DNA of 64,000 nucleotides, taken from contig NZ_FXBM01000004.1 of assembly GCF_900177245.1 (NCBI RefSeq), forward strand, positions 124,001 through 188,000. The letters are read 5' to 3'. Positions within the stretch are counted from its first letter, which is position 1, and each line of letters opens with the position of its first letter. The DNA comes from Rathayibacter oskolensis. Lineage in GTDB: Bacteria; Actinomycetota; Actinomycetes; Actinomycetales; Microbacteriaceae. Made by a program: the position numbers and the translations under genes. This document shows positions 9,642 through 10,806 of this stretch, piece by piece. Under the pieces are notes generated by a model that was given only the letters and a program-made list of their open reading frames with translations, was not told where the DNA came from and did no database searches.

Positions 9642-9818
9642 ATGACCAGTTCGAACATCGCTCCCATCGAGACCTACGCCGACGACGACGGCTGGCACAA
9701 CCGCGTCGCGCACGCCCGGGTCGCGCTCACCCACCACGGCGACTCCCGCGAGGAGGCCGAGCAGCTCGGCGCCGAGATGGCGTGCCAGCGCGGAGGCGGC
9801 CACATCGTCTCGGACTGA
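9642..9818 (+). CDS. Small acidic hypothetical protein (58 aa)
   Basis: An ATG at 9642 opens a 58-residue frame, MTSSNIAPIETYADDDGWHN at the start and CQRGGGHIVSD at the end. Its codon use fits the surrounding genes (G/C at almost every third position). The protein is rich in Asp, Glu and His, with no signal peptide or membrane segment. No family was recognised. The Shine-Dalgarno is weak (GAGAAG about 11 bases upstream). It stands alone between hxlBA and sugE, just upstream of the riboswitch. Coding status is probable, not certain. Confidence 0.5.
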   Translation: MTSSNIAPIETYADDDGWHNRVAHARVALTHHGDSREEAEQLGAEMACQRGGGHIVSD

Positions 9819-9885
9819 GGCGTCCCCGCTGCCCAGGGCCTGCACAGAGCCGCGTGGCACGATGGCACGAGCCGATGACGGCGGA

Positions 9886-9941
9886 CCGGACGAGGGAGCA
9901 GTACCCGGCAGCGCGACAAGACTGACTCGAAGGAGTGAGTC
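9886..9941 (+). ncRNA. Guanidine-III riboswitch with Shine-Dalgarno-sequestering helix
   Basis: The segment beginning CCGGACGAGG (9886), continuing GTACCCGG (9900-9907) and GACAAGAC (9915-9922), matches in order the conserved blocks of the guanidine-III (ykkC-III) aptamer known from Thermobifida. The closing helix would pair GAGCAGT (9895-9901) with ACTGACTC (9921-9928), with one bulged base. The same 3' strand can instead pair with 9933-9941 (GAGTGAGTC; 8 of 9 pairs), which covers the AAGGAG ribosome-binding site at 9930-9935 of sugE. Ligand binding should free that site, giving a translational on-switch. The downstream gene is the expected guanidinium exporter. Confidence 0.85.
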
Positions 9942-9944
9942 GTC

Positions 9945-10259
9945 GTGTCGTGGATCGTCCTCGTGGTCTCCGGGGTTCTCGAAGCCGTCTGGGCCACTGC
10001 CCTCGGCAAATCGGAGGGCTTCACCCGCCTCGGCCCGTCGGTGGTCTTCGGAGTCACCGTCGTCGCGAGCATGGCTGGTCTCGCCTTAGCGATGCGCGAG
10101 CTGCCCACCGGCACCGCCTATGCGGTCTGGGTCGGGATCGGCGCGTCACTCACCGTCCTGTACGGCATGTTCTTCGGCGGGGAGGGTTTCTCGCTCACCC
10201 GCACGCTGCTCGTCCTCGGGATCGTCGGCTGCGTGATCGGTCTGAAGATCCTGCACTGA
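9945..10259 (+). CDS. sugE: Guanidinium exporter, SMR family (SugE/Gdx)
   Basis: This is a small multidrug resistance-family membrane protein of 104 residues and four transmembrane segments that works as an antiparallel dimer exchanging protons for guanidinium. The essential glutamate is Glu13 in VSGVLEAVWATALGKSEGF, and the Gdx-type stretch GTAYAVWVGIGA near residue 56 supports the guanidinium rather than the multidrug subgroup. The start is GTG at 9945 with AAGGAG 9 bases upstream; that site is embedded in the guanidine-III riboswitch expression platform. This context makes the function well supported. Confidence 0.94.
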   Translation: MSWIVLVVSGVLEAVWATALGKSEGFTRLGPSVVFGVTVVASMAGLALAMRELPTGTAYAVWVGIGASLTVLYGMFFGGEGFSLTRTLLVLGIVGCVIGLKILH

Positions 10260-10365: not shown

Positions 10366-10806
10366 ATGCCTACTCGTACCGCACGCACTGCCTGGAACGG
10401 ATCGCTCGAGACCGGCGAGGGCCAGGTCGAGCTCTCCAGCTCGAAGCTCGGCACCTACGACGTGTCGTTCCCCAAGCGCGCCGCCGACGACGCCAACGGA
10501 TCGACCAGCCCCGAGGAGCTCCTCGGCGCCGCCCACTCCGCCTGCTACGCCATGCAGTTCTCGGCCGTCCTCGGTCAGGCCGGCGGCACCGTCGAGGCGC
10601 TCGACGTGCGCGCCGACGTCTCGCTCGGCCCGGACTCGGCCGGCGGCTTCAAGCTCACCGGCATCGCGCTGATCGTCAGCGGCGAGGTCAGCGGCATCGA
10701 CGAGGCGACCTTCCTCAAGGCCGCCGAGGACGCCAAGAACACCTGCCCCGTCAGCAAGGCGCTGACCGGAGTCGAGATCACGCTCGACGCCACCTTCGAG
10801 AGCTGA
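10366..10806 (+). CDS. OsmC/Ohr-family peroxiredoxin
   Basis: This 146-residue cytosolic protein reduces organic and fatty-acid hydroperoxides using two cysteines and a lipoyl or thiol donor. The two conserved cysteines are Cys60 (LLGAAHSACYAMQFS) and Cys127 (AKNTCPVSKAL), with a family-typical length and spacing. GGAGGAACC precedes the ATG. It is closer to OsmC (SACYAM) than to Ohr. Two palindromic boxes lie 38-88 bases upstream. It is convergent with the DUF222-HNH gene, with a hairpin between them. Confidence 0.92.
   Translation: MPTRTARTAWNGSLETGEGQVELSSSKLGTYDVSFPKRAADDANGSTSPEELLGAAHSACYAMQFSAVLGQAGGTVEALDVRADVSLGPDSAGGFKLTGIALIVSGEVSGIDEATFLKAAEDAKNTCPVSKALTGVEITLDATFES

Follow-up and report, generated by a model that had tools for sequence, protein, structure and literature searches.

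A guanidine-III aptamer before a Gdx-type transporter gene in Rathayibacter oskolensis and a predicted hairpin over the gene's ribosome-binding site and start codon

How might a guanidine-III aptamer that ends just short of a transporter gene control that gene's expression? The locus in question lies in Rathayibacter oskolensis (NZ_FXBM01000004.1, positions 124,001 to 188,000); the whole 64,000-nt stretch analyzed (GC content, 71%) is referred to as the window, and all coordinates below are window positions. A first-pass annotation had recognized the guanidine-III class from three blocks occurring in order, CCGGACGAGG (9886-9895), GTACCCGG (9901-9908), and GACAAGAC (9915-9922), and had proposed a search with the Rfam covariance model as a check. 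The blocks are present at these positions, and the search (cmscan) bears out the identification: the guanidine-III model RF01763 matches 9866-9931 on the forward strand with 46 bits (gathering score, 36; E = 2.3e-6), all 67 model positions are covered, and no other Rfam family exceeds its cut-off in the window. Both the conserved ACGA (9890-9893) and the conserved core strand (9915-9922) are present in this copy. The locus very probably carries a guanidine-III riboswitch that switches on translation of a guanidinium exporter; guanidine binding, translational control, and a kinetic choice between folds are what we infer. The model is based on the sequence, the covariance-model hit, the gene family, the predicted competing folds, and comparative conservation. 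The features of the locus, all on the forward strand (+), are as follows.

9829-9847 (+): direct repeat CTGCCCAG..CTGCACAG, copies 11 bp apart; partly conserved when aligned with 14 Rathayibacter-group loci
9866-9931 (+): guanidine-III aptamer (RF01763); cmscan
9871-9882 (+): upstream hairpin of the Rfam model, GCCG-AUGA-CGGC; cmscan alignment
9886-9889 (+): P2 pseudoknot 5′ strand, CCGG; partner 9905-9908
9896-9902 (+): P1 5′ strand, GAGCAGU; cmscan alignment
9905-9908 (+): P2 pseudoknot 3′ strand, CCGG
9911-9928 (+): 5′ arm of the mask hairpin; predicted fold
9915-9922 (+): conserved core strand GACAAGAC; cmscan, kept in listings of related leaders
9921-9928 (+): P1 3′ strand ACUGACUC, common to the mask, A9925 bulged; cmscan and predicted fold
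9930-9935 (+): Shine-Dalgarno sequence AAGGAG, 9 nt before the start; sequence
9933-9948 (+): 3′ arm of the mask hairpin, over half of the Shine-Dalgarno sequence and the start codon; predicted fold
9945-10259 (+): gdx (sugE-like) SMR transporter gene, 104 aa, GTG start; open reading frame, PF00893, best solved relative 6wk5

Related leaders were collected by a pattern scan for the aptamer, which gave at least 118 stretches, and from a sample of 299 genomes of the family Microbacteriaceae. The combined set, drawn for the pattern scan from among the matches listed, holds 263 loci, all with the aptamer, and 250 unique leaders; the ten weakest family-sample matches and that of G173 were left out, and six others were already in the set. 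Each of the four P2 pairs is of a standard type in 250 of the 250 unique leaders, and the helix shows compensatory swaps between relatives: the outer pair is C-G in 218, G-C in 31, and G-U in 1, and the third pair is G-C in 247 and C-G in 3. The P1 pair adjoining GU is A-U in 145 leaders, C-G in 103, and non-standard in 2, and the P1-2 and P1-3 pairs, as counted, are less regular (226/250 and 188/250), in part because of the bulge. An aptamer match was found in 146 of the 299 family genomes (138 above the cut-off) and in 14 of 15 Rathayibacter genomes; in the family sample, a comparison by eye shows an aptamer match in 68 of the 74 genomes that match gdx strongly. The window region is approximately 82 to 91% identical to 12 of the 14 Rathayibacter-group loci; for the remaining two, L127 and L130, the identity is approximately 76%. 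The direct repeat upstream of the aptamer is possibly a promoter or operator element.

The gene begins 14 nt past the end of the RF01763 match, which places the aptamer in the leader of a guanidine-related gene. Its product matches the SMR family (Pfam PF00893) with 76.5 bits (gathering cut-off, 23.7), and its closest solved structures are 6wk5 (Gdx-Clo; E = 1.4e-18, matched over residues 1-102) and 8vxu (E = 6.2e-18), both ahead of EmrE. The translation, read by eye, retains E13, W16, S42, Y59, and W62, where W16 is a mark of the Gdx subtype and the roles of the other four residues are likewise taken from excerpts of PMC7695847. The best NCBIfam match is the SugE equivalog NF008512 at 93.8 bits, below its curated cut-off of 126, and the protein is therefore not filed as a SugE equivalog. 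The likeness to the Gdx-Clo exporter consists of the best sequence match and the five retained residues, whereas the window protein is actinobacterial, falls short of the SugE cut-off, and is presumed from its sequence to transport. We regard it as a likely guanidine exporter of the Gdx type, in agreement with the earlier description of the controlled gene as the matching exporter. The upstream neighbor (9642-9818) encodes a small DUF2188 protein that is barely above the Pfam cut-off (22.1 versus 22), and the downstream neighbor (10366-10806) encodes an OsmC-family peroxiredoxin.

The first-pass annotation had further proposed that the 3′ strand of the closing helix, placed at 9920-9928, pairs alternatively with 9933-9941 over a ribosome-binding site at 9930-9935. 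AAGGAG does occupy 9930-9935, followed by the GTG start at 9945, and GACTGACTC (9920-9928) can form 8 of 9 pairs with GAGTGAGTC (9933-9941), with a G.G mismatch at 9924/9937 and the loop GAAG. The strand was nearly correctly placed, P1 proper ending in 9921-9928 with A9925 bulged, and the proposed helix is only the inner part of a longer predicted mask, 9911-9928 with 9933-9948, the outer part of which (9911-9917 with 9942-9948) spans the GUG start. The stretch 9911-9948 alone folds with -21.0 kcal/mol, compared to -3.9 kcal/mol for the P1 hairpin, values that exclude the energies of pseudoknot, triplex, and ligand. In the ligand-free ensemble, the unpaired probability is 0.03 for 9933-9935 and 0.00 to 0.04 for the start codon, while the first half of the Shine-Dalgarno hexamer (9930-9932) sits in the hairpin loop. 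When P1 is forced and the pseudoknot strands are held, these probabilities become 0.62 to 1.0 for 9933-9935 and 0.08, 0.58, and 0.70 for the start codon. Dinucleotide shuffling of the leader stretch gave folds as good as the window hairpin in 69 of 2,000 cases; for the complete 101-nt fold, the z score is -2.03, and 8 of 200 shuffles are as good. The window hairpin by itself is thus only moderately unusual, and comparison with relatives provides the stronger support.

These folds suggest the following mechanism. In the absence of guanidine, the arm 9911-9928, which contains the core and the P1 3′ strand, would fold onto 9933-9948 and hide half of the Shine-Dalgarno sequence and the GUG; with guanidine, the aptamer (P1, the P2 pseudoknot, and the core strand) would retain the arm, leaving the initiation region open so that the exporter could be made. 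The earlier proposal that the aptamer and the mask share one strand is upheld by the predicted folds and by the comparative analysis below. Its simple two-state on-switch agrees with the competing folds but needs a kinetic step, since the completed mask far exceeds P1 alone in stability, and the choice would most likely be made during transcription. The aptamer would be complete at about 9928, and the inner mask helix could close only approximately 13 nt later; in the predictions, an RNA ending at 9928 or 9932 folds best with P1, and one ending at 9936 or 9941 has the mask in its place. The decision therefore probably falls while the leader is being transcribed. A mask of such calculated stability, with pseudoknot and ligand energies excluded, might hardly open at all. 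The mask hairpin was also considered as an intrinsic terminator, a candidate that was dropped because no U-run lies 3′ of the hairpin and the hairpin overlaps the coding start.

Much of this has precedent. The Thermobifida fusca guanidine-III structure (Huang et al. 2017, PMC5696562) is of the same aptamer, which the window copy matches over 67 positions with P1, the P2 pseudoknot, and the core, and the excerpted text of that paper suggests that the ribosome-binding site becomes exposed once guanidine is bound. As described there, the aptamer end lies 16 nt from the ribosome-binding site in T. fusca, whereas in the window the last P1 position is 9928 and AAGGAG begins at 9930; unlike in that description, the window leader is predicted to form a specific hairpin that covers both the ribosome site and the start codon. 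Excerpts of a 2025 review (PMC12186494) present guanidine-III as predicted to switch translation, with mRNA stabilization as a further effect, and they describe the guanidine-I, -II, and -IV riboswitches as ON switches with the same ligand class and similar genes but with different RNA folds, guanidine-I and -IV acting on transcription termination. The original motif paper (PMC2864571), in the portion consulted, places ykkC-III (guanidine-III) in the leaders of emrE and speB.

To judge the mask in relatives, a start was assigned to each leader: 230 of the 250 unique leaders passed the start filter and 20 were dropped, the 230 including at least three with non-gdx or doubtful starts (L030, L080, and L088). 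Opening energies were calculated for 197 leaders, excluding those with spacers longer than 30 nt or with no recognized Shine-Dalgarno sequence. The aptamer arm adds a mean of 4.3 kcal/mol to the cost of opening the initiation region, versus 0.99 kcal/mol in 875 shuffled-arm controls, and the difference for the window leader, 11.5 kcal/mol, is the highest of the 197. Compared with 60 shuffles each, the hairpins of 220 relatives have a mean z score of -1.15, and 31% of them reach p ≤0.05. When each leader's own P1 strand was exchanged for those of others, none of 200 permutations reached the observed value across all 211 leaders or, among the matches listed, in the pattern sample (109 leaders), and 16 of 200 did so in the family sample (105 leaders), where the signal is weak. 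Whole-arm permutations reached it in 0, 4, and 3 of 200 cases (all 220 leaders; the pattern sample of 110, among the matches listed; and the family sample of 113). Core-only permutations (175/200 in the family sample, 24/200 in all leaders, and 3/200 in the pattern sample, among the matches listed) neither help nor refute, because an invariant strand cannot covary. Paired exchanges, given as chosen examples rather than as a count, include GGUCC/GGACC (L214), CCAC/GUGG (L225), GCCA/UGGC (L259), GACGC/GCGUC (L025), GCUCU/AGAGC (L254), and GACUC/GAGUC (L212). The hiding of the start site by a hairpin, as in the window, seems to recur in many relatives.

The start contexts point to a more specific role for the core. 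The core strand CGACAAGAC could pair with GUC-AUG-UCG at every position but one, a mismatch that faces the start codon's first base. The triplet immediately before the start is GUC in 143 of 230 leaders versus 13 of 290 generic starts, counts that, like all start-context counts here, are inflated because the sequences are related; the enrichment fits pairing of the near-invariant core with GUC-RUG-UCG. It extends over the family sample (80/119), other leaders (57/99), and non-actinobacterial ones (6/12), as grouped by record titles. The generic starts (290 in all, 264 unique for the register and 280 for codon 2) were picked by length, GC3, and Shine-Dalgarno sequence rather than by annotation, and 8 of the 290 have no upstream triplet. 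In the start-codon register, mean pairing is 6.48 of 9 positions for 215 unique starts versus 4.30 of 9 for the 264 unique generic starts, which likewise peak in this register, since some of the pairs come from the start codon itself. Serine at codon 2 under an aptamer is encoded by UCN in 122 of 122 cases, while AGN accounts for 240 of 816 later serines in 134 of the same genes and for 12 of 36 codon-2 serines behind generic starts. When codon 2 encodes alanine, GCG is not favored (28/77 versus 830/1,998 in gene bodies), which does not support pairing there. Taken together, the evidence leaves about evenly poised the reading that, in the guanidine-III class, CGACAAGAC has two jobs, contributing to the guanidine-binding fold with ligand and pairing with GUC-AUG-UCG across the start without it, and that the second has shaped the pre-start bases and codon 2.

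Among the alternatives, the one that survives best is control chiefly of mRNA stability, in which the aptamer in its ligand-bound fold would block RNase E scanning and the mask would be secondary. Stability control of guanidine-III is stated in the excerpts of the 2025 review (PMC12186494), which cite a 2021 paper for it, and such control could operate together with the mask; alone, it does not predict what the relatives show around the initiation region (GUC, register, and opening energy), and we consider it unlikely as the main mode. Less likely still is that a real aptamer is accompanied by a mask that is a by-product of G+C-rich sequence, with control exerted otherwise, for example through a folded aptamer lying close to the ribosome site. 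The 69 shuffles that fold as well as the window hairpin and the weak P1-strand result in the family sample would fit such a by-product, as would the presence of GUC in three of six first-gene gdx genes with no recognized aptamer, which, as far as six cases go, counts against core-start pairing; two of the six are closely similar (L263 and L266), and in L268 the aptamer looks decayed. The opening energies of the 197 leaders argue the other way, as does the GUC enrichment taken with its absence from the second genes of gdx pairs (0/20), a control in which L292 and L302 were not placed on a start codon and the starts overlap coding sequence. GUC was also seen by eye at none of 14 other SMR starts. 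Moreover, GUC precedes 6 of 14 non-gdx genes under an aptamer (L030, L088, L183, L196, L208, and L232), the others being L050, L087, L092, L108, L242, L254, L256, and L257; three further leaders (L012, L080, and L247) have no clear start. Blocked translation can be coupled to Rho, and guanidine might control transcription, for example through Rho-dependent termination in the untranslated leader. We consider this very improbable; the hairpin, with no U-run after it and an overlap with the coding start, is not an intrinsic terminator.

With translational masking as the preferred reading, the guanidine-III class is known, exposure of its ribosome site had already been suggested, the pairing of aptamer and exporter gene is ordinary, and the window copy is a further case with an unusually strong predicted mask. 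Masking of the start codon by the core strand refines this modestly and is apparently undescribed: no description of it was found in the excerpted guanidine-III literature, a coverage that does not extend to the 2017 validation paper and the 2021 RNase E paper. Its value is a concrete, testable account of possible control in this class, in which one conserved strand has two partners and the start codon lies inside the mask. If CGACAAGAC does have a second job, the expression platform may account for part of its extreme conservation, alongside the ligand site. A conserved aptamer strand should then not be taken as a sign of nothing but ligand contact, and start contexts could also aid the recognition of weak or variant guanidine-III copies.

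Several relatives carry the aptamer in other settings. In two mycobacterial genomes, guanidine-III aptamers precede non-SMR genes (L050 and L108), and the L050 gene fragment has no Pfam or NCBIfam match. Guanidine-III-like aptamers also precede small membrane proteins in L242, L254, L256, L257, L087, L183, L196, L208, and L232; the L208 and L254 fragments match NCBIfam CBU_0592 with 32.0 and 30.2 bits (cut-off, 25), and the others look alike by eye. In four of these aptamers the core is changed to GACGACGAC, which might reflect an altered ligand preference, and the four leaders with this core lack GUC before the start. Upstream of the gdx genes of L263, L264, L266, and L267, which have no recognized aptamer, GCACAGTCGTGCG-like inverted repeats are repeated, as if a putative repressor operator had replaced the riboswitch. 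In L268, an apparently decayed guanidine-III aptamer precedes the gdx gene.
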